From: Falciphora oryzae
Taxonomy: Eukaryota; Ascomycota; Sordariomycetes; Magnaporthales; Magnaporthaceae
Direction of reading: 5' to 3'
DNA length: 64,000 nucleotides
NCBI GenBank assembly: GCA_000733355.1
Contig: JNVV01000005.1
Span: 1,454,335 to 1,518,334 of the forward strand
Below are positions 22,564 to 48,271 of the stretch, in pieces. The notes below the pieces were generated by a model that searched no databases, was not told the DNA's origin, and saw only the letters and a list, made by a program, of their open reading frames with translations. Position numbers and translations under genes: made by a program. Position 1 is the stretch's first letter. Every line of letters begins with the position of its first letter.

Positions 22564-23178
22564 GGCAAAATCGAAAAAACTAGCAACCAAAACGGAACCC
22601 GTCAGGCTTTTAGGAGCTTTGAGCAAAACAACTGTCCTTATATATGCGCCCGCACGAAGGGCGGTATATAAAACCTTTACAATCAAGCTATTAAAGGGGG
22701 TAACAATAGAAAATCTCGTTCCAGAGGGGGATAATAATTCAAAGGGGGTTACTTTCGAAAACCCTGCTGAAAAAGGCACTATTCCAACTAGTGTTTTCAC
22801 CCCCGTTAGCGAATTTGAAAGCGAAATGGAAATCGATTCTCTACCAAATCAACTGCCTGCGGGGACTTTAAAAGCTCCGCTACCTACCCTGCAATACAGG
22901 CCCCCTAAGCCTGTTCAAACCACTATACGGCCCCCTAAAAAGCCTACAGTTTCAATGCCCCCGATACGTAAAATATTAGTACCTATAGTGGATAAGGAAG
23001 TGCGTGTTAGCGATACCCTCGCTAATGCTTTGGGGAAGGTATTACCTGAACTAGACCTAATGGAAATCGACGATTTCGTTCACTATATCTGCTATAAGGC
23101 AAAACAGGCTGTTAAAAAGAAAAAGCCTGCTAAAAACGGCGAACCCAATTCCTATAAAAAGGCTTTAAAAAGCCCCTA
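22564..23178 (+). pseudogene. Captured Ty1/copia pol fragment inside the hAT-like element
   Basis: The segment encodes, in one open frame on the plus strand, the region between integrase and reverse transcriptase of a copia polyprotein. It corresponds to the minus-strand segment at about 34960-35585 in copia B, with clear residue-by-residue agreement and scattered substitutions. Shared landmarks are VYKTFTIKLLKGV, LVPEGDNN, FENPAEKGTIPT, VDKEVRVSD and KPAKNGEPNSYKKALK. The match stops where copia B runs on towards its RT domain. The frame stays open for more than 200 codons up to a stop at 23213-23215, without the nonsense codons seen in the full elements. Confidence 0.85.
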
Positions 23179-23794
23179 TATATATAAATTTATTTACCCT
23201 TTTCGACTTTTATAAGCCATAGGGAGGATCTGCTAATCTAGGTAATATTGGGATAAAAACCGTGCCTCCGGTGTTATAACCGTTTAATAAGGTCGGGTAA
23301 AAAGGTCCCGTCGAGCTACTAGCAAGTCCTCTTCGTGTGTTTGAGCAGGACCGTATATAAAAAGCAGATATAGTTTTTACTCCCAGGCTCCGGAGCGGGG
23401 CGACACGCACCCGAGGACGAGTTTAAGGGTTTTTACATGTAAATACTACATAGTAAAGGCACCGAGGTCTTTTACGGATATAGCAAACGTATAAATATAT
23501 ATAAATAGTAAATAAATAAACTTAACTAATTGTATTTTTATCAGCATTTTTATTAGCCTTTTTAATAAAAAAAAACCTTTTTTTATATGCATATTTTATA
23601 CGAAATTTATGCAAATTTATGCATTAAATGACTTTTTGGTGACTTTTTAAGTCATTTAAGTCAGTCACAAGTCATTTACAAAAAGTCAAAGTCAAGTCAC
23701 CATAGTGACTTTGACTGACTTGACTAAAAAAGTCATGACTTTGACTTATGACTTTTGACTTTTTTCCGAACCCTGGTAGGGGTCCCGTCGGTAA

Positions 23795-28700: not shown

Positions 28701-29216
28701 CTCCCAAAATTTAATAATAAACTCGTTATCGGAGCGGATTCGTTTAATTTTTATTCCATAAAAATTATATAACAAAGCCCTAAAGTTTTTATAGCACCGC
28801 TAAAACTCGCTTATTAACTTTTCCATAAAAAAGTAGGTCCAAATATACCCGCTTCAATCGTCGTAAAAGTATATCCAGTATTTAAAGCCCTATAAATCTT
28901 TTCGAAAATATCTATAATCCACCGAAATAAAATTTCCAAGCTTTATTTAACTTTTTCCGGGCATTCGATTTATAACCTGTTTTATTTTAGCACAAACGCA
29001 CGCTTCGCATTTGGCTATTGGAGGACTTTTTAACCTAAGTCCGGCTGTACCCTAAATCGCCCTCGCAAGCACGTTAGGCCCCGGGTAGCCGAACCGGAAA
29101 TGCTAAAAAGTCCCGTCCTTTAGGGGACTTTAACGGTAATGCCGAAAATTTTACTATTTTGCCGGTGGATCGTTAGGTTATTTATCCGCTACTAAAGCGT
29201 TTTAATCTTTCCTTTA
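25790..29216 (-). pseudogene. Copia A pol remnant: integrase, reverse transcriptase, RNase H (RIP-degraded)
   Basis: No long open frame survives, but conserved copia features can be read between stops on the minus strand. The integrase C-terminal/GKG-like part lies around 28200-28900, including an Asp-Gly-Tyr-type GYD-x-V-x-M-Y-R-V segment and VI-x-x-R-x-V-x-FDE. The catalytic YVDD of reverse transcriptase is near 26985-27005. The RNase H end is close to the polypurine tract. Almost all breaks are TAA or TAG codons where Trp, Gln or Arg is expected. The part before 29216 is continued beyond the pogo insertion at 31078. Confidence 0.8.
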
Positions 29217-31079
29217 ACGTGGTTCACCACCGAGTGGGCCAAACCACCGAGTGGGCCACGCCACCCCGACCTCCGGTCAATCGACGCGCATGCCAACCCA
29301 ATAACGCCAGGAATCCATTCAAACTACTTAGAACTGTATATATCGGACATTTCTACTTTTTCCTAACAGGTGCGCGCATTATATCCGGTTTTGCCGTAGG
29401 TGCTACATCGCCGACGAATCGTCGTCGCCCTCCTTTCCTAACCCCTATGGTCGCGCATTTTTTGCTATAGTTATACATCCAGCTTTTGCTGGTCCAGAAC
29501 ATTTCGTACCTCGTCGATGGTAAATGACCCTCTAAATCGGACACGTGTTTTTTTGGCCCTCCGGCGTTTGTTTAGTGCTTCGTTCGCCCTTTGTAGCTTA
29601 AAGCACTTTTCCTCCAAAAGGTTGACCCGATGCATGATTGCCTTTGCCCTTTTCGCAAATTGGTTTACAACCGCTAGCATGGATGTCGGAAAGCTGCTTT
29701 GGTAATTGGAAATCCGAGTTTTGATGTATTCGGATTGCGAAGTTGCTTCTTTAGCTGTCCGGGGCGTTTTGGAAGTCCAAGGCTCGGGGTTGTTTAGGGG
29801 CGTCTTCGGGGGGGTTGGAATCCGTAGCTTTACATCCAGCTTTTTTAAAACCGAATCCGGGTTGAAAGGAGTAAGGCCAGCCCCTCGGAAGCCTTTTTGG
29901 ATGTTTTTTTTAGTTATAAAGTTAAAAAATGCCGCTTTAAACGCCGAAAGGAACTCGATTTTGGTTACGTGGCTAACGTGTAGCCTTATTAGGTTTTCGA
30001 TTTGTCGACCGTACGCCCGCTTTATTAGGCCGAAGCATCCGACGTTAAGCGGCTAAAAGAAGTGAAACGAATGCAAAAGCATGCAAAGCGTAATAATGTT
30101 GTGTTTTTAGCAATAAAGTTCGAAATCCGTCGAGTGGTGGCTTTCGTAGCCGTCCAGCACTAACAAACGATAGGACCCCGTGGAACGAGTTGCAATATGT
30201 TTGTCGAAATGCCGGATCTATTCCAAACCGAGCTCGTTCGTAGTTCACCTATTAGCGCTTGTTGCGATAACCCAATTGCGTGGAAGGTCGGTTTCCGAGT
30301 ACTAATTAGCTAGGTGGTATTGCCCCTTAACGATAATGAAAGGAAGGACCGCCTAACCGTAACAATTGACCTTTTAAATAACTATAGCCCATTCCCGGTT
30401 GCCAGGCTGAACCAGCTTTGCTTTGCCTCGCCCTTCAAATGTTGTAATGACCATAACGGCCGCAATTATGCTCATAAGGAAGCCGGTTTCGTCGAAATTA
30501 TAGATATCGTCATCCTGGATGCCATATTTGGCTACAGTGTTCCGTACAAGGTCGAACCACGCAAAAACGAGCTTGGGATCTTCGCATTTGGCCCTTTGGT
30601 AATCGTACTTTCGAATCCAACGCGTGCCGAGCTCCGGGCGGCGTTTGACGAACCTCGCGACCTAGTTGGTCCTGACGGTGTTCGCGTCGCGTTCGGCGAG
30701 CAGTCGGTTGGCCATATCTTCAACACCAGAAGGCCGGGGAGGGAATGCTCGAAAATCCAGCTCGAATATGTACTTAACAAGCGCCTCCTCTTCGGATTCC
30801 GTTAATTTCTGGCAATTGGGTATGTTGTCGCGTCGAGCAGGTTGGCCGCGCTTCCGACGCGCTAAAGTCGATCGCGCGACCGAATAGATTTTTGCAGCTT
30901 CCCGCATGCTTAATTTCGGGTTGGATTGCAAAGCATGGAGGGCAAGGATTACCCGGCTTTCGTCGTTTTCCATTGACATTGTTGTGGGTGAAGGAATTGG
31001 TTGTGAAAGAAGAAGTGTCGCGTTGTCGCGTGTCGTGGCCCACTCGGTGGTGTGGTCCACTCGGTGGTGAACCACGTTA
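29215..31079 (-). mobile_element. pogo/Fot1-like Tc1-mariner DNA transposon, inserted in copia A
   Basis: The element is 29217-31077 (1861 bp), flanked by TA on each side. Terminal inverted repeats are about 45 bp and start ACGTGGTTCACCACCGAG; each end contains the ACCACCGAGTGG unit twice in tandem. Size, TA duplication and the CENPB-type transposase place it in the pogo/Fot1 group. Confidence 0.9.
29471..30979 (-). pseudogene. pogo/Fot1-like transposase, inactivated by in-frame stops
   Basis: One frame of 502 codons from ATG 30979 to TAA 29471 with no frameshift but several internal stops, first at 30662. The N-terminus has a Psq-like helix-turn-helix (ALQSNPKLSMREAAKIY, STLARR) followed by a CENPB-type helix-turn-helix (LTESEEEALVKYI). 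The DDE catalytic core is visible: YNFDETGF for the first Asp and LLVLDGYESHHS for the second. The third position, normally Pro-Leu-Asp-Val-Gly-Cys-Phe, reads Asn instead of Asp (about 30035-30055). The stops sit where Trp or Gln is expected, as RIP makes from TGG and CAG/CAA. A coiled, basic C-terminal tail ends near 29471. Confidence 0.85.
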
Positions 31080-32300
31080 ACTTTTTATAATATAGTTATA
31101 TTCGATAACGAATTGGTTATATTTGTTAAAAATAACAACGAAAAGCTAATCGTCGCTATTTTTAAACGTAAATGGGTTCCGTTTTATATCCCATTATTAG
31201 CTTTTCCGCATTAGGCATACGAAAAAAACCACGTTATAAGCGAACTTTTTAATTAAAACCACATTGCGTAACCGGATTTAGCTTAATTTAAACCCCGTTA
31301 AAGTTACTAAAGTTACTTTTCCGTAATTAATAATTTAAAGCTTTTTTAATCTTATTTGTACGTAATTTCTGGCCGTAGCGTACCGAAAATTCCGGAACCG
31401 GTTTAGGTCGTTAAAAATATAGATAGTAGCCCCGGAATCGAAAATCGTAAACCGGTGGAATAGGTAATCGCTTACGTTAAAAACAGCGCGGTAGGTTATT
31501 TCGTATATTGTAATCGTTAAAGCGTTTAATACGACTCCCATTCGTCGAATTAGTTAATTTTTAGCTTTAACTTCCTTTATATGGTTCGTTTAAAGCATTA
31601 CCCGTTCGTTTTTTTTTGTTTTCCTTTTTAATGTTCCCGGCGTATTTTTTTAATAAAAGCATTTAACTTTTTGTTTTTTTTGCGTTTGTATTCAATAAAC
31701 TATTGTATAGGTTTTAACGGTATCTACCAATCCGGCGCAAGCTTTTTTAGGATATAAAAGCACTTTTCCGCTTTATGCTTATTTTAGCTACATACGCGGC
31801 AAACGGCTTTTGGGGGTAAATCGGATATCCCTTTTCGGTATACTTTTCGGGAGTTTGATTTGGCCTTAGGAATTCGATTACCGGATTTGGACACCGGTAG
31901 GCTTTGTTTCCGCGGTCGCTTGCGGGCAACCGTTTCGGTATTATCGTCGGAAAGTGATTCGCTCCTTTTTTTTTAGCTTTTTTGGGCCCGGATCCCGTAG
32001 TACCCCCTAAATCGGTAGCTACGAACCTTACCCCTTTAACGCTTTTCAGCTTAACGATAAGCATATCCTCCGTACCCATTTCGTACCGAATCTTTTTTGC
32101 AATATCTAAATGCTTTAAAAGCCCGCGTTTAATGCTATCCTAATGGTTTTTGCGTGCTTATAAAGCCCAAAACCTATAGTATTCGCTTACAGCTTTAATA
32201 ATTGCAAAGAACCAAATTAAAGGCGTAGTAGCTTTTGTAATTTCGGTTTGGGTTCCGTCCTTTATAACTTGTTCGAATTTTTTAATCCATTTATTAATAT
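31078..32300 (-). pseudogene. Copia A gag-protease remnant
   Basis: Minus-strand frame 31335-31541 contains the aspartic protease motif FDSGAT followed by IFNDL-x-RF, typical of fungal copia. Frame 31747-32079 is a Lys/Pro-rich stretch upstream of it, probably the gag C-terminal region. Stops interrupt both. Continues across copia B at 47607. Confidence 0.7.
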
Positions 32301-32916
32301 TGGGAGGTCAAATCGGGGATTTGCAGCGCAGTCACAGTGGCCAGCAGGGTCTCGGTTAGTTGGATTGGGCCCTGACAGGCGCTATAAATAGCGCTGTCGG
32401 GGCCCCAAGCTTAGTGGGTGGAACAGGCTTGTATTGCAAGTGAGGGGCGCCAACAATCGCTTCCCTCATATACCCACCGACATCGATCCCGCGGGTTCTC
32501 CACCGTGGGGGCTTCCGGTGCCGCAAGCGATTTTCCGAAAAATTATTTGTATGGGATTTCCAAAAAATCGACCCACGGCCACCAAACCCATCTCCGCGTT
32601 GGGCCTCCAATTCTGACTTGTGCAAATTGACTCCTGACCAATTCTGTGTAGGGTAGATGTGCAGGGTAGGCGAGTCAGTGCGACCCACAACGGCTGACTT
32701 GGGTGCTTAGGCATCCTACAGGGGCTACAGGCCACCTTCAGGCTTTCAGTAAGCGCTATAAATGCTGTAAGCCACCCCCGGGTACGCTATAAGCCCTGCC
32801 CGCTACTCCTGTGCACAACCCCACAACAGTACAGGGTAGATAATCTAATAAAAGTAGTACATGGTAGGTTGGGCCTATGCACCCAACCTAAGCTAAATAC
32901 ATTAGTTCTTTTAACA
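32301..32916 (-). repeat. Copia B 3' LTR (616 bp)
   Basis: Matches 37950-38094 plus 47130-47606 with mostly transitions and a one-base indel. A TATA-containing palindrome, GCGCTATAAATAGCGC, lies at about 32380-32396 and could serve as the LTR promoter in either direction. Confidence 0.9.
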
Positions 32917-33059
32917 CCCCCTCTCTTTAATTATTTGCTTGCAAAAAAGGAAAAGGCTAATTACGGGATAAAAGAAATAAGGGTTGTAAAGAAAATTTTC
33001 TGTGCAGTAACCAGCACTGATTGACAAAAAGCCTAACCAAAAAGCACTAAGGAAAAAAC

Positions 33060-36000
33060 TTAAGCTGGGGTTTGTAGGCCCATTAGCTTTAAAAAAGCCT
33101 TGTGTTTTGGAGGGGTTAAAGGCTTAGTCAACCCATTAGCGGGCATATTCTTGGTATCGATGTACTGTGTCACACGGAAGAACCCGTGGACTTAACTAGT
33201 CGGCATCACGAGTCGGCCTTACGGAGGTTCGGAGACCCGCATAGGCGGTCAACGGCCCCAAGGCCAAGCGGTGAAGGTTGGAAGGCAGTGTGAATCATGT
33301 ACTCGATACTTCGCACGGATCACAAAGGGTTTATATAAACCCTGCCATCTCCTATGTCTTCCACGAGAGATTCCTTCTTCCTCAAGCATCTCTTGAGCCC
33401 ATAGAAAGATTATCTGCAATCTAGAGATTCTTTCTCCAAGCCGTCTTTAACCCCTTGTTACATACTGTATCGTAATTGTTTTAGCGCTAACTTCCTCCCT
33501 AACGAAATGGAACTTTAGCAGGGTATGTTTAGTCCTTGCATGCATGGTAGGGTTGTGCGCATTTCCGATAGAACCAGTGTTATCGCTAAAAATAGCAATA
33601 AGTCCGTTAATAGGGCTTTGCAGCTCTGTAAACAGGTACCTTAACCACTTCGCCTTTCGAAGGGTTTCCGCTAAAGCATCAGTTTCAGCCTCAACAGTGC
33701 TAAGGGCTATAGTGCTGGCCCTTTTGCACTTCCAACTAATAGGACCACCTGCTAGGCAAAATAAATAGCCATAAGTTGATTTTGAAGTGGATTTATCCCC
33801 CGCATAGTCGCTATCGCTAAAACCAACTAATTTTAACAAGTTACCTACAACTTGTGCATGTATAGGACTTGTTGTTTTCCCTAGGTGCCCGTAGCAGATA
33901 GTTGTTTAACGGGTTGTACCTAAGTACCTAAATAGGTTCTTTGCAGCATTTATATGCGTGTTGGTAAGCGCTGTAAGGTGGCGTGAAATCCACTAAACAG
34001 TAAAACCGACATCCGGGCGGGTTAAAAGCATCAAATACATAACGGTCCCTATAATCCTCTGTAGCAATTTAACTTCGGCAAAGGTTACAGGCGATCCGCC
34101 AGTATCGTTTAGCACACCCGGTTGTAAAAAGATACTTATACTTCGAAAATCTTGCAACCCGAAGGCTACTAGCATTTCATCGATGTACTGGCTCTAGTGG
34201 ATCCAAAGAAGCCTTTTAGGCCTATCCCTTATGATTTAAACACCCAAAAAATAGGTGGCAGGCCTACGGTCTTCTAATGCATACACTTTATTTAACGACT
34301 TTTTCAGGGCTTGGATATATTTAAAATTAGGCCCAATTAACAAGCAATCGTCCACAAAGGTGATAATAAAGTGCTTTATTTTTGCATTGAAGTAAACCGC
34401 TGGATTAGAAACAAAAGGCATAAAACCTTCCTTTTTAAATAGGGTTTTTAGCTTGTTCTGCCATTCACGGGGTCCCTGTTTCAAACCATATAGTGCCCTT
34501 TTCAGCAGGATCACCTGTTCTTTTAAAGATTTAAAGCCAAAATGCTTAGCGAGCTTTTTGATTTCGGGGGTTGCAGTAGCTAACCACTCTTTAAAGCCTT
34601 TTGGAATACTAAGGTATAGCTCCACGTTAAGGTCACTGTTTAAAAATGCCCCAATAAAATCGATTTGTTCGATCTCCCAATCTTTTGCTGCAGCAAAGGC
34701 CAGCAAAATACGCCAGGTAGGCGGTATACTAATAGAGGCAAAGGTTTCGATAAAATCCAAGCCTTCTATTTGCAAAAAACCCCTAGCAACCAGCCTGGCT
34801 TTATATTTTAGGGGGCGATTTTTTTTATTTTTTTTAAGCTTAAAAACCGGTCGACAGGTTATTAATCTCCGCCCTTTAGGTAGTTTAGCTTTTGGCAGGA
34901 AGTTAAAAGTTCTAGCGCGTAAAAGTTGCTCGAATTCTAACCTTAAGGCAATTAACTAATATTTATTATAGGAGCTTTTTAAAGCCTTTTTATAGGAATT
35001 GGGTTCGCCGTTTTTAGCAGGCTTTTTCTTTTTAACAGCCTGTTTTGCTTTATAGCAAATATAGTAAACGAAATCGTCGACTTCCATTAGGTCTGGTTCA
35101 GGTAATGCCTTCCCCAAAGCATCAGCGAAGGTATCGCTAACACGCACTTCCTTATCCACTATAGGTACCGGTATTTTACGTATCGGGGGCACTAAAACTG
35201 TAGGCTTTTTAGGGGGCCGTACAGTGGCTTGAATAGGCTTAGGGGGCCTATATTGCAGGGTAGGTAGCAAAGCTTTTAAAGTTTCCGCAAGCAGTTGATT
35301 TGGTAGAGAATCGATTTCCACTTCGCTTTCAAATTTACTAACGGGGGTGAAAACATTAGTTGGAATAGTGCCTTTTTCAGCAGGGTTTTCGAAAGTAACC
35401 CCTTTTAAATTATTATCCCCCTCTGGAACGAGATTTTCTACTGTTACCCCCTTTAATAGCTTGATTGTAAAGGTTTTATATACCGCCCTTCGTGCAAGCG
35501 CATATACAAAGACAATTGTTTTGCTCAAAGCTCCGAAAAGCCTAACGGGTTCCGTTCTGGTTGCTAGTTTCTTCGATTTTGCCCTATGTTCCAAGGGTAT
35601 TAATACTTCCGCATGGGTACCAATTACCCTATAATGGCCTAAATTAGGCCTATGAAAAAATCCGGGTTCTACTTCGTTATAAAACTTTTGGTAGGGGCAA
35701 AGCTCCCTATTAGTAACTGCAGTAGCGTTTACTAGTTCAACTACGGCAGGTAGGATATAACACCACAAATAAAACGGCAGGCCTGCCGCAGTAATCGTAG
35801 CCCTAAGCCTGTCTAAAATCACCCTTACAAAGCGTTCTAACAGGCCATTTTGCCCGTGGTTATAGGGGTTTAACGTTTTAAACGCAGCGCCTTTTTTATT
35901 AAGCCAATCTTTTAGCGCCAAATTAACCTCCCTACCACCATTAAAAAATAACCTTAAGGGATAGCGCCCGTAGTTTGCTTTTAAGCTCTTAAAAAAGGAT

Positions 36001-37949
36001 TTTATAGCTGTGTACACTACTGGGCCGTGCTTACTGGATAGCTGGAAGGTCCACCTATATTTTGATTTTCAATTAATAAGCAGAAGGATTACTGGCTTTC
36101 TATTATGTAGCGTTAGGGATAAAGTAACAGTACCCCCTTCGATAAAATCTAAAACGTTATCCGGTAAAGGCAACGGGCCTTTTTTAGTTCTCCATACTGC
36201 TACAGTTTTGGCACAAATTGCGCATTGCAGCCTTTAAACTTTATTAAAGTTAAAGAAACCTGCAGTTATTTTAGCAGTCTTTTTTAGCAACGCCAACCCC
36301 AAATGCCCTAATCGGCGGTGCCAAAACAGCGCTTTTAGGGCCAAATCTTCATCACACCCTTTTACAACGTCCCCCTCTGCATTTACCCATCCGTCAACTA
36401 ACTTTTGGAAGCCTTTAGGGGTAATATCGATATAAGGGGCCGCCTGTACCTTACCTACTAGGGGAGACTCGGGCAACGGATCTTTTGCATAGGAAGTCCC
36501 CTTTTTTAGTAAAGTAACGTCCTCTGGAATAGGCTTTTTAATGGATTTGTTTAGTGGCTTGCCGAGCTTACGGGGCTTAACTACACGGGAGTTTTTAGGG
36601 CTTTTTGCACTAAATTTAGGCTTGGTTTTAGTGGCCCCTTGTTCCAATTTTTTCTTTTGGTTTAAGGTAGCCTTACCTTTGGTATAGGGTAGCTTTTCCG
36701 TTTAATCCGTATTTTTTTTTAAATCAGAATCGAAACGAGCATATTCCTCCTGATTTATAAGGGGAACGTTGTTAAATTTAACGCTAATTACGGGAGTCAC
36801 CCGCTGTAAAGCATGGCTAAAATTTGTGCTATAGTGAAATCCTTTGCGTACATTGGGCAAAATATACCCTTTAACGTTAAAAAAAAAACCGTTATTAACG
36901 GGATCCAAAACGCCTCAGCGTTTATAATTGGAGTTAAATAGCTTGTGTTTAACAAGAACACCGCCTAACTTATAGTAACGAAGACCACTAATAATATTAA
37001 TATCGAATTCGGGGATAAACAATACATTTTTTAGTGTTATTACTTCGAAAACATTAGGGTTTGTAAAGCATTTCACTGGTATTTTAACAGTGCCTATGCT
37101 TTTAGTGGTTACGGGGCCGCCACCCGTTATAATCTCCTTTTTAGTTTTAGTACTAAAATTAGAGAAAAGCTCCTTAAAGTTAAAGATGTGATTTGTGCTA
37201 CTTGTGTCGTATAGAATAGGGGCTTTTAAAGCCTTTTTAGCGTTATTTACAGATTTACAGCGCGTGCACTGCATTGCCGCCGGTAAATCAAAGGTAGTTG
37301 AAGCCTTTAAATCGGATTTAGGATCCGAAAAGTCACTGTTATTTGATACGTCCAATAACCCCAAGTCCACAATTCCGCTACTAGCGTTACTTTCCGAAAA
37401 CCTTATAGAAGGGTTTTTAGCGCCAACACCCCCTGAAAGGAGATTGTAACTTAGCGCTACAAAGGAAGTTCCTTTTTTATCGGAGGACTTGTTACCGTCT
37501 TTTCTCTTCTTTTTGGATTTGTCAGATCCAGAGGAGCCATTTTGGCTTTTAGGCTCATTTTTAGCCTTTTTGCCATTCCTTTTAGCGGCTTTCTTCTTTT
37601 TCTTTTTTCCTTTGCCTTTAGTATTAGTACCCTTTTCGCCTTTTGGCTTTTTTTGCGATTAAGCCTTATGGCTAGCAGCCTGTTTGTGGGCTGTAGAGAT
37701 TGGATTATAGGTTTTAGCAATTAAATCAGCTATTAGGTATTGCAAATTAATGCCTTCGGTAAACTGCCCTAAAGCAGTAGCACTACGAATAGTACTCCGA
37801 AGCCTTTCAGCCCACTGGGGAAAAGACCCCTCTATGGCCTTTAGGTATTGATTTTTGATATTAACAGCAGCTAATTGCATTTGACTATTCCGGAGCCGAA
37901 CTAGCAGTAAATTGAAGTAGGAATTAAACTCGCTAATACCTATTAAAAT
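33060..37949 (-). pseudogene. Copia B gag-pol polyprotein, disrupted
   Basis: Order on the minus strand: partial gag (37949-37660), Lys-rich linker, protease with DTSSTNHIFNF (about 37190), pre-integrase WHRRLGHLGL (about 36320), integrase (36240-35000) with long linker, reverse transcriptase (34775 to about 34200, IEQIDFIGAFLN and catalytic FVDD near 34345), RNase H (33839-33463, SDSDYAGDKSTSKSTYG). The true end, with K-N-M-P-A-N-G-L-T-K-P-L before a TAA at 33060, appears only when the solo LTR at 33168-33462 is disregarded. Nonsense codons separate several blocks. Much less AT-shifted than copia A. Confidence 0.9.
33163..33467. mobile_element. Solo LTR with 5-bp target duplication, inside copia B RNase H
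   Basis: A 295-bp unit at 33168-33462 begins TGTCACACGG and ends CCTTGTTACA, flanked by TACTG at 33163-33167 and 33463-33467. It shares no sequence with the other LTRs in the window, so it comes from a third LTR family that has otherwise recombined out. TATATAAACCC near 33332 may be its TATA box. Confidence 0.9.
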
Positions 37950-38094
37950 TGGGAGGTCAAATCGGGGATTTGCAGCGCAGTCACAGTGGCCAGCAGGGTC
38001 TCGGTTAGTTGGATTGGGCCCTGACAGGCGCTATAAATAGCGCTGTCGGGGCCCCAAGCTTAGTGGGTGGAACAGGCTTGTATTGCAGGTGAGG
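37950..38094 (-). repeat. Copia B 5' LTR, first part
   Basis: Matches the first 145 bases of 32301-32916. Interrupted at TGAGG by the chromovirus; the rest resumes at 47130. Confidence 0.95.
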
Positions 38095-38371
38095 TGTTAC
38101 GGGGTAAGCCGAAGGCCTGTACGAGGTGATCACGATAATACTAGACGGTAATCCGGGGGTAGAAGTCCTATATTGCTATAGGGTAGATACGACAACTTCA
38201 GCTTGGTTGTAGCAATCGCCGGATTGCCTCAACCAAGCCGCCTAAGTAGCGCGGCCCCCTGGGCCTCGTTGCGTGCCTGGGTGCCTCAGGCCTCCACAGG
38301 GCACAGCCCCACCAGGGAGGCTGAGACCCTCCTTTGTGGCGGCCCTTTTTATCGCGACGGGCCTTCTTACA
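38095..38371 (-). repeat. Chromovirus 3' LTR (277 bp)
   Basis: Nearly identical to 46853-47129; the three differences seen are T here for C there, in the last 50 bases. Confidence 0.95.
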
Positions 38372-39010
38372 CTATCCCCCCTCTAGGGCGCTGACGTCTC
38401 GGCAGCGCCTACTGGTAGGGATGTAGTGGTACCTTTCCTAAACAGCTTCGGTTTGCTGTTTTTGGGGTTGGGTTATCGGTGGAAGTGGCAATTCGATCTG
38501 AGGTGTCGAGTTGGGCGTGGTGTGAGTTTTGAATAGCCTTACTTTTGGGGCTGCAGCGAGTCCCCAGTGATTTCCGGTGGGGCTCGGGCGACGGCAGGTG
38601 CGGGGGTCCGGTGGGTCCCGGCCACGGCGGCGGCAGGTGCAGCTGGCCCGGTGGGTATCTAATTCCCTTCCGGCCCGGCGACCTTCCACCTTTTCCTTTC
38701 CTTAACAACAACAACTTTTCAACTTGTTGTTGTTCTACCCAACCTGCCTCTCTTGCCTTGGCTCGCGCCTGGGCTTACGCGAACGCTCTAGTCTGCTTGC
38801 TCGTTTGCATCAGTCCTGCGTTCGCGCTCCTCTCTTCCCTGCTCTTTGGCGCTCGCGCAGCCGAACGTCCACTCGATTTGCGCCTGGAGCTCTCGTTTTC
38901 CTTTCTGTCAGGCGCTCGCTTCCGACCGCGCGCTCATTCGTGCGTCCTACTCGTTCTCGTCCCCTCCTCCAGCACGCTCGTCTCGGGCGTGGGCTAACCT
39001 TCTTCAGGCC
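38372..39010 (+). promoter_or_regulatory. Internal chromovirus region upstream of the antisense gene
   Basis: About 640 bp between the 3' LTR and the antisense ATG with no pol sequence. It must hold the antisense gene's promoter and leader, unless transcription starts in the LTR. The bases from 38700 contain a CAACAACAACTTTTC / TTGTTGTTGTT inverted pair; the rest is pyrimidine-rich. No TATA box seen. Confidence 0.4.
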
Positions 39011-40126
39011 ATGTTTTACGATTACGAGGATAACGCCGCCGTCCGGCGTCAGCTTTTCGGTCTCGCCGACAACGAGCAAGCGGTGGTCCGGAACCTGTCT
39101 GCGGCTCCGAACGTGCGCGCGCGCGTTCATTTCCGACCCTCCATTCCTTTTCCTGGGGTGGCTCCGGTTTGGCCTTATTCGACTCCTCAGCTGCCCGCAT
39201 ATCCCGCTGAACTCTTTCGGAGGTTGCACGACCTTACGGATCTTTCCGACGATAAGCAGCTGCTCGCTCTTCGGCTCCTTGCCGAAGAGGACCGTCGCCA
39301 GGTGACGGTCGTGCCGATTGCCGGTCCGCTCGACTTCCACGATAACCGGCGTCTATTCCCTTGCGGGAACTGCTACGTTGCCGACCTTTTCCGGGGCGGC
39401 GAGTATAACGAGCATGACTTGGTGTGTGCTGTCGGTCTCCTCGAGGCGGGTCGTTGCTATTAGTGTGCTTGGCGCGGCTGGGTCTATCGTCCCTTGTAAG
39501 TTCCTTTTCCGATCCGACGTTGTTATGCTCCCGGCTTATATGAACTTTTTAGGCCTCGCGAGTACCCGTTCAGCGTGGACCGCACCCTGTTGGAAGCAGC
39601 CTGGTGGGTGCGTGGCGGGCTGCCCTCTCCGGCCATTGGAATTTTGCGCTTCCGGGCCGTTTACAACCTGCTCCTATAGGAGAATCTGCATGGATCCTCC
39701 GTTACTACCCACCCCGACGCTCGTCGTGGTTTGCTGTTTTCGGCTGTCGACGGGGGACGGACTCCTGCGAACGTGGCGGTTTTGACCCCAATGCATCCCG
39801 ACCAGCTGGTGTTCCTTTGGGAGCTGACGCACTCGTTTTATTTCCTCCCGACTCCTCGCGACTTGCTGGTATCCATCCGGTACGAGCGCATCGCCGGCGG
39901 TTACTGGAGCTTCGTCGAACGTCCGCATGTGCACATTCGGATCCCTTCTTTTCGCGAGCTCGGCCTGGTCAACGCGCGTTTGGCCGATTTAGGTCAGCCT
40001 GTCCTCCGGAACCGTGCTTCGGTGATGATTCACGTAAATCATGCCAATCGCCCTTTGCGTTTCTTCGACTTCGAGCAAGCCGGGGCCGCTCATCGGATCC
40101 GTCTTTTAGGCCCTGCAGGTCCCTAG
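39011..40126 (+). pseudogene. Additional antisense gene of the chromovirus, two exons, two nonsense codons
   Basis: Runs opposite to gag-pol and converges with its 3' end. Exon 1 is 39011-39495, exon 2 is 39553-40126; the 57-bp intron has GTAAGT at the donor and TTTTTAG at the acceptor, and the joined frame is 352 codons. It opens at ATG 39011 (context GCCATG). In-frame TAG codons at 39461 and 39677 are each one transition from Trp (TGG) or Gln (CAG), which fits RIP. Both halves look like genuine protein: LADNEQAVVRNL, LRLLAEEDRRQVTVVP and GPLDFHDNRRLFPCGNCY in exon 1, PMHPDQLVFLWELTHSFYF and RNRASVMIHVNHANRPLRFF in exon 2. No domain, signal peptide or membrane segment recognised. Function unknown. 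Confidence 0.65.
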
Positions 40127-40382
40127 GGTGAAATCTCCGACGCCGGTTTCGTAAGCGATGGTACGACGGAGGAGGAAGCAGAGGATTGGCTCGAGCACGT
40201 CGCTTCGCTGCTCGATTCCACCGGGTAAAGGATAGTGCAAATGGAAGGCGGGCTCTTGGTTGGTAAAGGAGTCGCAAACCCTGGTTGACGTTGCTTTTCC
40301 CTTTCCTTTCGGGCTTATTTTGTTGGGTCTTTTGGCAATCTCCTTTCCTTTGGGCCTGGGATAGGGTTATCCCATTTGCGGT

Positions 40383-43300
40383 GCGTTTTGCGTTTCCTTT
40401 TCAAATAGGCGTTAACCAGTTTGCGTAAGTTTTCCAAATGCTTTTTTGGTTCCTACGTGTTGTATTCCACCGGCTATCCTATCCATTTAACCAGGAAAGA
40501 TCGGGATCCTTCCTGCTTACGCATGTCGATAACGTCCTCCATTTCCCACTCCTCCGTCTCCTTTTCCAATTTTGGGAGAGCAAAGTTGGGGGGTTACGGA
40601 CGGGAATCGTCCCACGGTTCCAGCAACGTTACGGAAAAAACGTTATGCAAGCGGCTGTATTTGTCCGGCAGTTGCACTTCGTATGCTAAACTGCCAACCC
40701 TTTTTATAATAGGTACTCGGATGTAAGTAGGTGCCAGCTTGCGGGTCCCTGTTTTGAACCGGAAGTTCCTTGTGGATAGGCCGACGATTTGTTTTTTTTA
40801 GTACTTTTGAGGTTGTTTCCGTTGGTTGTAGTACCGGCGTTGGGCTTTCATAGTACGAGCATGGTTGGTCCGTATGTCGGTTCGGATCTTGCGGATATGG
40901 TGCAACCGCTCCAGTACTTTTTGGACTTTGGTTTGCTTTGGGTCGATTACGATTTTATATATGCGAGGGTTAAACCTATACAGTGTTTTAAAGGGACTGA
41001 CGCTAATGGTTTCGTGCTTGGCGTTGTTGTACGCAAATTCGGCCTTATGCAACATTGCTGCCCAACCGTACTTTTTTCGGTTAATGGACGTCCGTAAGTA
41101 ATGCGTTAGTGTTTGGTGGGTGCGCTCTGTTTGGCTATCGGTTTGAGGATGGAACGCCGTGGATAGCCGTCGGGCTGAGTGCAAAGCTTTTCGGTACTCC
41201 GCCTAGAAGTGGCTTGTTAGCAGCGAATTTTTGTCGCTAACGATACCTTCCGGGGTGCCGAACTGGCATTTAACGTACTGCTACAGCATTTGGGCCAGCA
41301 TAAGCGCCGAGATGGTTTTGCGCACTGGGATGAATTTGGCGTATTTGGTAAAGCGGTTAATTACCACAAGCACGGCATTATACGTTTGTCCTGTGGAAGT
41401 TGGGCATTCGGGTAGCCCTGTAATAAAGTCCAGGCTAATCTTTTGGAATGGATGCTCCGGCAATGGGAGCGGTTGCAGTTCGCTATAGGGTTTATGTTTG
41501 GGCACTTTAGCTCCTTGGCATGCCTGGCACGATTTAACGTAGGCTACGATGTCCTTGTCCAGGTTCTCCCAGTGGAACTTGCGTTTAATAAGTTCTACTG
41601 TTTTGTGAATTCCGAAATGTCCGGCCCGGGGGTCGTCGTGGTGCTAAGCCATGATCTGGGCTTTTAACGCTTTTTGGGCAGGTACTACTAAGCGTCCCCG
41701 GAAGTACAAAACTCCGTCTTCGTTTATATGGTATCTTTTGTGGGTGGTTCGGCCTTTCCTAGCCTTATCGCCTCTTTGGGCGGCATCGCTCCTTCCGGCG
41801 GCATTACGTTTGGGCGCGGTATCGCTTCCTTTAGCGGCATCGTTTCCAGCGGCATCGCCTTCCCTGGCGGCATCGCGGCTTTGCGCGGTATCGCCTCCTT
41901 TGGCGGCATCGCGTTTCCGCGCGGCATCGCTTCTAGCGGCATCGCCTTCTTCGGCGGCATCGCGTTTCCGCGCGGCATCGTTTCCAGCGGCATCGCGTCT
42001 TTGCGCGGCATCGCCTTCTTCGGCGGCATCGCTTTTAGCGGCATCGCGTCTTTGCGCGGCATCGTGTCTTTGCACGGCATCATGTTTTTGCATGGCATCG
42101 CTTTTTGCGGCATCGCGTCTCTGCGCGGCATCGTGTCTTTGCACGGCATTATATCTTTGCATGGCATCGCTTCTTGCGGTATCGCGTCTTTGCGCGGCAT
42201 CGTATCTTTGCACGGCATCATATCTCTGTATGGCATCGCTTCCAGCGGCATCGCTTCCTGCGGCATCGCGTCTCTGCGCGGTATTGCCTTTCTAGGCGGC
42301 CACGCTTGTCCTAGCGGGCTGATCTCTCTGGATCCCGGCGCTGTCCTTTACCAAAGCACGTAATGCGACAATTTTTTGGTCCTGCGTTTGCAACCGCTTA
42401 ACCAATTGGTATGTTGCTCGGCCTGGTTTATCGGCCCTGGCCGTTTCGTCCTTTATTAGTTCGATAATGACAGGGCGAGGGAGCAGTTGGTTATAAATAA
42501 CGCTTTTAGCTCCAAGCTCCTTTGCTAGCAGTTCTTTTTCTGCCCGGGGCTGAGCCGTCGCGGACCTTTTTGGGTTACCTTTTGGGCCAGGCTTTGCCTG
42601 CCACTCTCGTTTTTTATTGCGAGTAAGGGCTGCGATAGGGATTTGTATGGCCATTTGCAGCCCAGGCCGTAAAGACTGGTTATTTTCGGCGACCTCCGAA
42701 CGTGCCCGTTTTAGGCGAGGCCTTAACGGCATTTGTTTTTCGTCCTTCCCTTCCATAAGGGCATCGATTCGGGTAAAATAGTTTAAAGGGTCGACGCTAT
42801 GACTATTCCTTTTTAAGCGGGCGCGTTGCCTCTTTTTTGGGTCGCGAACCCGAGTCGGAATCTTTTTTGCAGCTTGCATATATTGCTTTACGATATTTGG
42901 ACAATTCTTTTGGATCGTTAGTGTAGCTATTTGTTAGGTTAATTTAGCTGGCAGGTGCGGCAACAAGTTCAGTTTGGCCGCAAAGGACGGGACGACGTCC
43001 TCGTATGTGATCTCTCCCCCTATATAATCTGGCCTCCTGGATAGACCGTCGGCGGGGTTGGTTTTGCCTGCTTTATGTTTAATATTAAAGTTAAACTGCG
43101 ACAGCCTGTACACCCAGCGTGCCAACCTCCCGCGGAGGTTTTTCGCGGGTGTTTGGATTACTCCCTTTAGGGCTTGGTGGTCCGTTAGTATTGTAAATAC
43201 TTTGGAAGCTCCTTCCAAGTATTGGCGCCAGTGTTCCAACGATTCGATAATCGCTAGTAGCTCCTGCTGGCCCGTGGCCCATTTCTGTTCCGCGTCGGTC

Positions 43301-46300
43301 AGTTTGCGGGAATAGAAAGCCACGGGGTGCCACCTGCCATCCGTTAGTTGCGATAGGATGCTAGAAATGGCTTTGGTAGAAGCGTCTGTTTCCACTCGTG
43401 TTTTTTTAGTTGGATCCCAATGCTTTAAAATGGTGGCGTTCCCGAAAGCCTTTTTAAGTCTTTCGAATGCCCTAGCTGCCGACTGCGGCCAGTCGAACAT
43501 CCCCTTTTTTTTGCCGTTTTGACTGCCTTTAAGCAGCTCGGTTATGGGTGCTACTACGCGCGAGTAGCCGGGAATGAATTTGCGGTAAAAGTTGGCGAAG
43601 CCTAGGAACATTTGGATGTCCCTGTAGAACTCGGGTGGTTGCTATTCCTGGATAGCTTTTGTGCGATTGGGGTCCATGGAAATGCCTTCCTTGGAAACCC
43701 GGAAGCCCAGGAACTCGACGTGGTTTTGGAAAAACTCGCATTTGGATTGCTTTGCATATAGCTCGTGTAACCGGAGTCGCTCCAAGATTTGCTTTACATG
43801 CATTTCGTGCTCCTTTTCGGTTTGGGAAAACATAATGATGTTGTCGAGATACACCACGCAGATGTGGTCTATTAGCCTTGCTAGCGCCCTATGCATGTAG
43901 GCTTGGAACGTTGACGGGGCGTTGGTTAATCCGAAAGGTATAATAGTGTATTCGAACAGCCCGTATTTGGTGCGGAAGGCTGTTTTCTATTGGTTTTGCT
44001 TTTTGATCCGGATGCGATGGTATGCGTCCTTTAAATCCAGTTTGGAAAACCACCTCGCTTTTGCCAGTTTGTCCATTAAGTTAGAGATAAGCGGCAAGGG
44101 ATATCGGTTTTTGCGAGTGATTCGGTTAAGGGCGCGGTAGTTAACGCATAAGCGCAGCGTACCGTCCTTTTTGGGGACGAACAACACAAGGGAGCCTGCG
44201 TCGGCCTCGGAAGGGTTAACTCTTCCCAAAGCCAGGTTCTTTTGGAGATATTCCTTTAACGCTGTTGCTTGTTTTTCCGAGGTTGGGTACAGGGCGCCTA
44301 CTGGGGGTTTGGTCCCTTCCTTTAACTCGATAGCATGTTCCGCTCCTTCCAGCAGTGGAAGTGCTTTGGCCCGTCGGTTCGAAAATACGTTGGTATAGGC
44401 TTGGAGGCGCGGGTCGAGGGGTTCGGCCAGCTTTTTTTCGTCCTTATTATTAAGTGAGGGGACCGTGGGCTCGTGTGCATTGAGCTGGTGATGCGTTGCT
44501 GTAATATGCCCGATAACGGCCTTTGTTAGCTGCATTTGGTATGCTGGCGAGCCCGAAGCAACGGCGGCCGCCCAATTATTTGGGTTAGGGACGCGTGTCG
44601 TCCTAAACTTCTAGGACTGGTCGGCGTTAAATAGGTTAATGCCTTTTTAGGCCATCGTGGGATGCCTAATAAGGATATCTAATGCGTCCGCACTCCTGCG
44701 GATGGCGTAAAACAGCGCGGTAATGGTTCGCTTTTGGCCCTTCCGATTTTGGGCTTTTAAAGTGATGTAATGGGCCCTATAACATTTAATGGGTGCGCTT
44801 TGGATTCCGATAAGCTCGGGGATCGGCTCGGAGGCCGCGGGAAGTTTGAACTTCCTAATGAACCTGTGGCTTACTATATTCGCTGCGGCGCTTGTGTCCA
44901 GGTCTATTAGCACCTTGATTTGTCGTTTTGTCGTTTGGACGTTTATGCCCGTCCTAAAGGAACGGCCATGGCCTTTTATGTTGAGGATGTTAAAGCCGCG
45001 AGGGTAGGGGTCGTTTAGCGGCTGTCCTCGTTTCCCGACTTATTGTTATACTTTGTTTGGGAATGATGACGGTCGTTTCGAGCTGGGGCATGCTCGTTTT
45101 CGCCGCTGCCGTCACTCCTACGGTCGTAATCGAATTCGTCGTTTTCGGGGTACTGGGCGTCGATTGCTTTTACCTTTTTAGGTTTGGCAGGGCAGTTAGC
45201 GGCCTAATGACCCGTTTTTCCACAATTGTGGCATGTCCCGGGCTTCGGTCCCGTGTGGTTTGTTCGCTTGGCTTTGCCGTCGTAGCTCGATGGCTTTTTT
45301 GTTTGGGGCGTGCTGGATTTGGGGAACCGATGGTCTCCCGACCTCTTTTCATAACGGCGGGAGTCCTGCCGTTTGGAGTCGAAACGGCGCGAGTCATTAC
45401 GGCCGTTAGGCCGGCGGTCATTTTGCCGGTTAGGCCGTCCTTTTCGTCCGTCCCTTTTTTGGGAATGGTATCCCGAGGGGCGTTGGTTCCTGTAAGGCTT
45501 TTGGGACTGGCGATGCTCGAACGTTTTGCCGGAAGGCTTGCCTTTTTTAACAGCCCATTTCCTTTCGGCTGCGTTGGCAACGTCCCTGGGGGTGTCCCAG
45601 TTGGTTTGCGCGTCGGCTACCAGCTCATCCTGTAACCAATTTTGCAAGTGGAAGGAAAACTTTTTCGATAGGCGAGATAGCTGCTGAGGGTCTGTCCACG
45701 AGGTTTTAGGTTCAATTTTTTATGCTAATATTTGCCATTTGGTGAGGAACGACACCGGGGATTTTTAATGACCTTGGTGTAGCTGTTTGTGGCTGATTTA
45801 GCTATGGTGGATTTGGATGGTCGGGTCGACTCGTCCCTTTTCGAAGTAGTCGACGAAGTCCTTCCATAGCCACTGATGGGACTCGGCCGAACCATACAAT
45901 CTTTCGGCGTGAGTCCTCCAGTTGGCGGCTACTTCGTGGTGTAGCGAGGGCATTGCCCAAGTTATTTGCACCCAGTCGGGGGCGCCATCGTATAGCGCAT
46001 TCCCTTTTTTAATGCCTTGGACCCAGTTCCTCACCTCCGAAGGGGTGGCGTTGGCCTTAAGAGTATTAACGCTATATTTCGGGGGTTTGTTGTAACGCGG
46101 TGTAGGGGCGTGATTTCGGGATTTGGATGACAGGATCTTTCGAAGAAGTTCCATCATTTGGGCCGTGCTTCCGTCGCGGTGTTCCCTTGTAGGGCGGCGG
46201 TCGTCCGGTCCGGGGGATTCGGAGCGTCGAATTGGAGCGCGCGATTGGTCCGACCTTGTGCGGTACGTGTGATGAGAAAATCGTGAGTTGCGGGAAGTGT

Positions 46301-46370
46301 CCTTGGATCCGTGGTTGGAAGGGCTACGGGATCGGGGTTCGTCGCGCTTTGGAGATCGGGCTCCTCGCAT
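40383..46370 (-). pseudogene. Chromovirus gag-pol polyprotein, disrupted
   Basis: Blocks in order on the minus strand: gag from 46370, with an Arg/Ser-rich start and the CCHC knuckle CHNCGKTGH then Ala-Ala-Asn-Cys near 45210; protease with LIDLDTSAAANIVS (44913); reverse transcriptase (44535-43642) with KLDLKDAYHRIRI and the catalytic box reading YLDN where YLDD is expected; RNase H (43611-42934) with ETDASTKAISSIL; a repeat-rich linker (42266-41740); integrase with the H-H-C-C zinc finger (41640-41510), LDFITGLPECP and FHPQTDSQTERTHQ; and a chromodomain around 40560-40440 (SFLVKWIG, EPKKHL). Several TAG/TGA stops replace Trp or Gln. A chromodomain places it among chromoviruses. Confidence 0.9.
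41740..42300 (-). repeat. Coding tandem repeat (15/18-bp units) between RNase H and integrase
   Basis: The plus strand repeats GGCATCG every 15 or 18 bases for more than 500 bp. On the minus strand, in the integrase frame, the units read Asp-Ala-Ala-x-(Arg/Lys)-(Arg/Ser), for example DAAQRR and DAAKS. It lengthens the linker before the integrase zinc finger and is highly charged. Confidence 0.85.
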
Positions 46371-46852
46371 CGTTAACTCCTTTTGTCGGTGTTTCTGATA
46401 CCGTCCTTCCCTATGCTCGGGTTTCGGGGGACCGTATTTTTTGCGCGGGGGCTCCTCTTTGCGACGACCAACGAGGTTACGTCGGTCCTCGTGTACGTGA
46501 TCGACGTTTTCTTCGGAATCGGGGTCGTGGGTGAGGGCGGAGGCCCGACTAGCGGGTCGGGTTCGCTCTTGCGAGTGGCGGCTGACGCGATCCAGGAGGT
46601 CGCGGAGGGCGCCGCTGCCCCCTTCCTGTATGAGGTCTCGTAGGTCCTGCTCGAGTTGGTTGGACGCGGTTTCGGCGGGCGGGGGTGCCGGCTTACGACG
46701 TGCCGTTTGTGAGCGCGTTGTAGGCCTTATTGCCGTCGTCGCCGGAGGGCGTGACCCCGTCGGGGCTGGCTTTCCGGGTGTCGCGTCCGATTGACCGTTT
46801 TGGATTATGGTGATCGGCTCGTACTCCCAAAAAGGGTGTAGAAGCTGAAGAA

Positions 46853-47129
46853 TGTTACGGGGTAAGCCGAAGGCCTGTACGAGGTGATCACGATAATACT
46901 AGACGGTAATCCGGGGGTAGAAGTCCTATATTGCTATAGGGTAGATACGACAACTTCAGCTTGGTTGTAGCAATCGCCGGATTGCCTCAACCAAGCCGCC
47001 TAAGTAGCGCGGCCCCCTGGGCCTCGTTGCGTGCCTGGGTGCCTCAGGCCTCCACAGGGCACAGCCCCACCAGGGAGGCTGAGACCCTCCTCTGTGGCGG
47101 CCCTCTCTATCGCGACGGGCCTTCTTACA
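46853..47129 (-). repeat. Chromovirus 5' LTR (277 bp)
   Basis: Pairs with 38095-38371. The internal side continues TTCTTCAGCTTCTACACC on the minus strand, where the primer-binding site should lie; I did not assign the tRNA. Confidence 0.95.
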
Positions 47130-47606
47130 TGAGGGGCGCCAACAATCGCTTCCCTCATATACCCACCGACATCGATCCCGCGGGTTCTCCGCCGTGGGGG
47201 CTTCCGGTGCCGCGAGCGATTTTCCGAAAAATTATTTTGTGTGGGATTTCCAAAAAATCGACCCACGGCCACCAAACCCATCTCCGCGTTGGGCCTCCAA
47301 TTCTGACTTGTGCAAATTGACTCCTGACCAATTCTGTGCAGAGTAGATGTGCAGGGTAGGCGAGTCAGTGCGACCCACAACGGCTGACTTGGGTGCTTAG
47401 GCATCCTACAGGGGCTACAGGCTACCTTCAGGCTTTCGGTAAGCGCTGTAGATGCTGTAAGCCACCCCCGGGTACGCTATAAGCCCTGCCCGCTACTCCT
47501 GTGCACAACCCCACAACAGTACAGGGTAGATAATCTAATAAGAGTAGTACATGGTAGGTTGGGCCTATGCACCCAACCTAAGCTAAATACATTAGTTCTT
47601 TTAACA
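47130..47606 (-). repeat. Copia B 5' LTR, second part
   Basis: Continues the LTR begun at 37950; matches 32440-32916 with a few transitions and one inserted T. Confidence 0.95.
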
Positions 47607-48271
47607 CCATTTAATTATATTTTTAAAATTCCTCGGTCCTCGCATAACCTTTTTATATGCGGCTTTCGCCGTTTTTTAATTTTCGAAAAAATAAAATTCC
47701 CCGTATTTTTGGAAATTAATATAGCTTTTTTGGATAGCGACCCTTATATACCCGTTTTTTAAAGCAAAATGCCTATTTTTTAGGGTCTCGCAAACCGTTT
47801 AATCCATCCATTTGTAAATGCTTTATGCGTTTTTATATCCCTCCTTATATATATGTAAGGCATATTAATAACTAGCCATTTTTTTTTAAAAAAGCACACC
47901 CAAAAAATCGAACATAATTTCGGAAACGTTTTTTGGGTTCGAAGGATCGGCCGGGACCTCCGTAAACGTCGAAAGAATAGAGTTCGTATTTTTTAACCGT
48001 GTGTTTCTTTTTAAAAAAGGACTTTGGGGGGGGCTTTTTGGCTTATTTGCGAAATTTTCGGAAGCGAATGGAATTAAGGCCACTTTTCCTCGCCCAAAAC
48101 GAAAAGCGTTAGGCTAAAGGAATCGATTTTCCGTAGGAAAGCCGTATTCCATCCCTTCCAACCGGTATAGTCCTTAAGGGTTGGGCCGTATTCGGTAGTA
48201 GCCATTTTTGGTATCGTTAGACGCTGCTAATTTGCGCGGTAAACTGGACAACGCAAATGAAACTTTTAATC
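47607..48271 (-). pseudogene. Copia A gag-side remnant
   Basis: AT-rich sequence directly inside the copia A 5' LTR. Short minus-strand pieces such as 48083-47886 (LIPFASENFANKP...) suggest a decayed gag. It rejoins the block at 32300 once copia B is disregarded. Confidence 0.6.

Follow-up and report, generated by a model that had tools for sequence, protein, structure and literature searches.

The Ty3/gypsy chromovirus described here carries an accessory gene that is antisense to gag-pol and probably belongs to an exchangeable, U3-containing 3′ module, and the intron of this gene was probably lost, by way of an mRNA, in a second version of the module. The element lies in the window, that is, the whole 64,000-nucleotide stretch of Falciphora oryzae DNA under analysis. 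The module of the window and its close copies is referred to as version A, and the divergent one as version B. An intron-bearing antisense accessory gene in a fungal chromovirus had already been proposed in the initial annotation, and the proposal is supported by the presence of the gene at 22 of 22 pol ends, by divergent homologues and by the constraint between versions A and B.

Overall structure of the element

The element spans 38095-47129 on the minus strand, with the target-site duplication (TSD) TGAGG on both sides. Its two LTRs differ by three transitions and no transversions. Reverse transcriptase, RNase H, integrase and chromodomain are present in gypsy order, as in Ty3/gypsy chromoviruses, with the chromodomain being read through two stops; the open piece of the chromodomain alone is below the Pfam cut-off. 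The open piece in the gag region gave zero matches in the Pfam search. Between RNase H and integrase, pol contains a degenerate tandem repeat (41747-42307) with spacings mostly of 18 bp and all multiples of 3, and this repeat has a different length in the version B locus L049.

Table 1. Features of the gypsy element and its antisense gene (window coordinates).
Feature	Position	Strand	Basis
Antisense gene, exon 1 (codons 1-161 and 2 nt of 162)	39011-39495	+	frame and ATG; 51% identity to P0001 residues 3-174
Intron, 57 bp, GTAAGT..TTTTTAG	39496-39552	+	frame; aligned copies
Antisense gene, exon 2, to the stop common to 21/21 aligned copies	39553-40228	+	alignment of copies
Cysteine-rich core, CxxC-x17-C-x9-CxxC (codons 118-152)	39362-39466	+	five Cys common to window, P0001 and P0002
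Acidic C-terminal tail	40127-40225	+	translation
5′ flank of the antisense gene, within the exchanged module	38372-39010	+	transversions 11-25% per 150 bp vs L049 (38395-38994)
3′ LTR	38095-38371	-	LTR pair, 277 bp
5′ LTR	46853-47129	-	LTR pair, 277 bp
TSD TGAGG, left copy	38090-38094	.	flank of the gypsy element
TSD TGAGG, right copy	47130-47134	.	flank of the gypsy element
Chromodomain, pol end	about 40396-40548 (C5:1494730-1494882)	-	PF00385, E 2.1e-8, read through 2 stops
Tf2-1-like SH3 domain of pol	40597-40797	-	PF24626, E 3.2e-12
Integrase zinc-binding domain	41284-41643	-	PF17921, E 1e-17
RNase H	42937-43641	-	PF17917, E 1.2e-34
Reverse transcriptase, two open pieces	43645-44610	-	PF00078, E 5.5e-22 and 7.8e-10
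Gag region	45801-46898	-	position only; 366-residue open piece

The antisense frame and its product

With the pol domains on the minus strand, the gene on the plus strand is antisense to gag-pol. The two-exon frame and its 57-bp intron stand as initially annotated, but the length of 352 codons does not: the codon at 40124-40126, where the frame had been ended, is a stop in 11 of the 21 aligned copies (the window and 20 further fetched loci), among them the window, but encodes an amino acid in the other 10, whereas codon 387 (40226-40228) is a stop in all 21 and the frame therefore has 386 codons. The window copy is interrupted by three in-frame stops (codons 151, 204 and 353) rather than by the two first counted. 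Nor does the frame fill the space between pol and the 3′ LTR, since 639 bp between this LTR and the ATG are outside it; this region presumably comprises the promoter and leader of the antisense gene. The intron is 56-57 bp long in 20 of the 21 copies, and L028 has an 840-bp insertion there. Its GT is intact in 14 of 21 copies and its AG in 9 of 21, the others having RIP-type changes.

Three protein searches, one of which scored only the best 7997 candidates by shared words, return the same two homologues, with E-values down to 7e-97. P0001 of Gaeumannomyces hyphopodioides (458 aa) is 49% identical across 99% of the query, whereas P0002 of G. tritici (467 aa) reaches 38% across 76% of it; the two, although from one genus, are ~34% identical to each other. 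The cysteine-rich core is the best-conserved part, followed by the motifs RGWxxRPLPRExPF and ENxxGSSxTTHPxAR, and P0001 has an acidic tail at its C-terminus like that of the window frame. Among the 21 copies, the five core cysteines are kept in 16, 21, 9, 17 and 14, respectively, and are otherwise tyrosines. The predicted protein would be ~386 residues long and would combine the cysteine-rich core with the acidic tail.

Zn2Cys6 fungal zinc clusters are defined by six cysteines in a standard spacing. Membership of this family was considered and rejected, because there is no Pfam Zn_clus match, the second spacing is 17 residues, and the sixth cysteine of P0001 and P0002 is replaced by a tyrosine (codon 159) in all 21 version A copies. 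In agreement with the initial annotation, in which no domain was recognised, neither the window protein (at E up to 1; TRP28 likewise without a match) nor P0001 and P0002 (at E up to 10) hit any Pfam family. A PDB sequence search gave nothing credible, and AlphaFold with three sequences yielded a pLDDT of 34 in both predictions. As its likeliest role, put forward tentatively, the protein may bind nucleic acids and regulate expression or transposition of the element that carries it; the cysteine core, acidic tail and closeness to U3 would speak for this.

The openness of the antisense frame alone is weak evidence for coding, as two or fewer stops occurred by chance in 4.9% of 5000 simulations under a second-order Markov model of the region. 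The case for coding is made by the homologues and by the codon-position test described below. A frame that is open by chance in GC-rich noncoding DNA would agree with this p of ~0.05, but its probability is negligible in view of homologues at such E-values, codon-position constraint and an intron site common to the divergent relic L050.

Copies in the genome and their decay

A DNA search of the genome with 39011-40126 gave at least 28 matches, the window counted in; all genome match counts given here are lower bounds. Compared with the window over these 1116 bp, the 20 fetched copies have 70-250 transitions and 3-8 transversions; of the 21, the window copy is the richest in G+C. To judge from these sequences, the version A copies are one family decayed by RIP-type mutation. 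C-to-T changes on the plus strand number 325 at 39 CpA sites and 664 at 92 CpT sites, and are less frequent per site at CpC (290 at 104 sites) and CpG (245 at 135 sites), with 404 changes in the opposite direction; the window copy, L019 and L028 are omitted from this count. The within-family dN/dS that had been suggested as a selection test was discarded for lack of power, because the copies differ almost only by RIP-type transitions, and constraint was found against version B only. The other check suggested, for further copies, turned out in favour of the gene, which is not lacking in them, though each of the 21 has 2 to 15 in-frame stops and none is free of stops.

A search with the pol end likewise gave at least 28 matches, 22 of which start at the pol end (one of those only 88 bp long). 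Among the matches listed, the antisense gene is on the expected side of pol in all 22; it is version A in 21, once across a 6.9-kb gap, and version B in one. At C99 a chassis swap was suspected from a different pol after the antisense gene, but the matching pol resumes 6.9 kb on, so the swap was rejected and a nested insertion fits. The intervening segment (L061:1379-2986) is another gypsy pol that separates the antisense gene from the pol belonging to it, apparently as a nested insertion. In L012 the match runs out at 40314, and the next 3 kb contain no matching pol.

Constraint on the antisense protein

Version B was found at three loci, L049 (C51), L051 (C40) and L052 (C33), which in exon 1 differ by 1.2-2.6% transversions among themselves and by ~15% from the window. 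RIP makes no transversions. Between the window and L049, transversions at codon positions 1, 2 and 3 number 49, 55 and 97 (p 4e-5), and between the window and L051 they number 19, 18 and 38 (p 0.006). Fourfold sites are changed more often than second positions, at 70/221 (32%) versus 55/382 (14%) for L049 (p 8e-7) and 29/95 versus 18/166 for L051 (p 1e-4), with constraint ratios of 0.45 and 0.36, respectively. Codon periodicity is absent for L052 (95/95/111, p 0.43), which is strongly decayed and was compared over a longer, poorly aligned stretch, and the upstream flank used as a control is not clearly flat (28/28/42, p 0.14). The antisense protein is under moderate constraint, and it is this comparison with version B, together with the two Gaeumannomyces proteins, that argues for the frame being coding.

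It might also be supposed that the active product is antisense RNA and not protein, with the double-stranded RNA formed with genomic RNA feeding silencing. The antisense unit does lie inside the genomic RNA, and a similar route is discussed for plant elements in the accessible part of one account (PMC7264820); nevertheless, constraint on a protein frame would not be expected if RNA alone mattered, which makes this explanation quite improbable.

Proposed exchange of the 3′ module

A comparison of the window element with the C51 element gives 34 transversions in 3838 sites (~1%) of the gag-pol segments (40345-40700 and 42320-45805), versus 332 in 1884 sites (~18%) of 38395-40344, and the jump near 40345 is abrupt. 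The same holds for C40, with 19/1378 transversions in gag and 9/789 in pol versus 73/485 in the antisense exon. At third positions, the pol of C51 and the gag pieces of C40 together have 15/923 transversions and the antisense gene 97/382 (p 3e-40). Since the third positions of gag-pol are also nearly unchanged, purifying selection cannot account for the contrast.

The C51 element was inserted as a unit, as it has the TSD GTTTT, its own LTRs are 0 transversions apart, and both share the same 17 transversions relative to the window LTR, all lying outside the 59-base stretch at the U5 terminus. What is divergent between versions A and B is thus the stretch from the pol end to the 3′ LTR plus U3, but not the 59 bp at the U5 end. 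Among the three version B loci, only C51 is seen with both LTRs and gag-pol, and it carries insertions.

Accessory genes are often fast-evolving, and the 3′ region is less constrained than pol. One could therefore argue that there was no exchange and that the 3′ region merely evolves faster than gag-pol. However, the fourfold sites of the antisense gene (70/221) far exceed the third positions of gag-pol (15/923) in transversions and the divergence shifts abruptly near 40345, so that faster evolution is a very improbable explanation. The combination of a shared U5 end and gag-pol with a different U3 and cassette fits the outcome of one template switch near the pol end. In minus-strand synthesis, U3 would be copied first, then the cassette and then pol; the antisense gene and U3 would accordingly form a 3′ module that reverse transcriptase passes between lineages by switching templates near the pol end. 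Within this module, the antisense gene would be read against gag-pol from its own region adjoining the 3′ LTR; it ends tail to tail with pol.

A bolder idea, which we regard as rather doubtful, is that U3 and the antisense gene are a matched control module: the protein would recognise its own U3 or leader and set the activity of the lineage, and swaps of the whole module onto successful gag-pol chassis would create compatibility groups like phage immunity regions. If this is true, the intronless version B is a fossil record of an antisense mRNA made, spliced and reverse-transcribed. The mosaic L054, in which an A-like antisense gene is joined to a different U3 and leader (an alternative alignment across an insertion gives 7.0%), indicates that the module is not always swapped whole and speaks against strict matching of gene and U3.

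History of the intron

The intron is missing exactly at the exon junction in L049 and L052. The relic L050, by contrast, has a canonical 50-bp intron in the same position and phase as the window intron. In exon 2, the transversion distances of L050 to A and B are 0.256 and 0.246, versus 0.186 between A and B; L050 is therefore outside both by distance, and a single loss in B is the simplest history. Because of the antisense orientation, splicing of the genomic RNA cannot remove the intron, and this would be why it survives transposition. Its precise loss in version B suggests that an antisense mRNA was expressed, spliced, reverse-transcribed and copied back into an element.

Two further loci were not counted as evidence on the intron. 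L051 was rejected because its exon 1 runs into gag precisely where the intron would be, at a junction marked by a short shared sequence; the locus is scrambled over L051:3100-6895, where an LTR fragment is followed by pol, antisense exon 1 and gag in turn. In L053, the intron site is occupied by 60 inserted nucleotides that lack clean splice sites.

L050 (L050:4560-5130) could be the remnant of a host gene. It is a broken relic whose only gene-length match in the genome is itself (two other matches are 133 and 65 bp), and relatives of the element's pol are absent within about 10 kb of it. These facts, together with the canonical intron at the same site, would agree with an origin of the gene by capture from the host, in which L050 is a remnant of the host family and versions A and B are separate captures. 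Against this, L050 is broken, A and B share place and orientation, and P0001 and P0002, at ~34% identity within one genus, are unlike an orthologous host gene. The odds are slightly lowered further by the other single-copy relic, L053 (L053:4234-5206), which is very divergent and in which the antisense gene lies beside 85 bp that match pol at its chromodomain end; L053 is hence an element remnant, and the arrangement holds in the most divergent relative found. On balance, host capture is unlikely, and an accessory gene of the element with a single intron loss in version B is the reading we prefer.

Comparison with known antisense genes

Antisense accessory genes have been described in LTR elements before but are unexplained. 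The initial comparison with the plant element Grande is fair as to kind, but a fungal precedent exists, namely brtn, an additional antisense gene of the Boty-like Ty3/gypsy elements of Botrytis cinerea (Zhao et al. 2011, Virology 417:248, as cited in PMC8365987, PMC7264820 and PMC4227169). According to the accessible parts of these accounts, the gag-pol of Boty has a chromodomain (PMC4227169) and brtn sits between pol and the 3′ LTR, antisense to gag-pol (PMC7264820), so that a fungal gypsy element with a chromodomain and an extra antisense gene in this place is common to both systems. Different from the gene described here, neither an intron nor an exchange of brtn is mentioned in those parts (PMC8365987, PMC7264820, PMC4227169), and Botrytis proteins are absent from the hits of the three protein searches with the window protein. 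A Monilinia transcript is also described as resembling BRTN (PMC5987419).

The plant aORF-3R genes, such as gene23 of Grande and those of RIRE2 and of Retand with TRP28, are likewise antisense between pol and the 3′ LTR, occur in most copies and have been suggested to be regulatory, as far as the available portions of PMC7264820 and PMC11963269 go. Their hosts are plants, and Retand is described there as a non-chromovirus (PMC7264820, PMC11963269), while TRP28 is among the Pfam families that the window protein does not match. Conservation of the protein, a criterion for aORF-3R, is found here too, with moderate constraint overall and none in L052. HBZ, the antisense gene of HTLV-1 (PMC11963269), may be compared by analogy only, as an antisense gene in a reverse-transcribing element.

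The kind of gene, an antisense accessory gene comparable to brtn, is already known; a literature search, with subscription papers mostly beyond reach, brought up neither this protein nor a comparable loss of an intron or exchange of such a gene. Here the DNA alone makes it possible to trace constraint on coding, the history of splicing and the passage of the gene between lineages of elements. Should intact relatives confirm them, joint exchange of the gene and U3 would suggest that the two are regulatory partners, and the loss of the intron would testify to an antisense mRNA that was made, spliced and reverse-transcribed.

Surroundings of the element

A minus-strand copia element (32292-38094 plus 47130-47608) carries the gypsy insertion within one of its ~630-bp LTRs. 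Pieces of the copia region at 34953-35583 and 22564-23196, both in the window, form an inverted pair with 93% identity. The 1.9-kb segment at 29214-31080 is probably a DNA transposon relic: its inverted ends of 51 bp are 94% alike, and the broken frames between them look transposase-like by eye. In the whole genome, all 150 of the chromodomain candidates scored (the best 150 of 287) match, and on this sequence evidence the genome seems to be rich in chromodomain retroelements.
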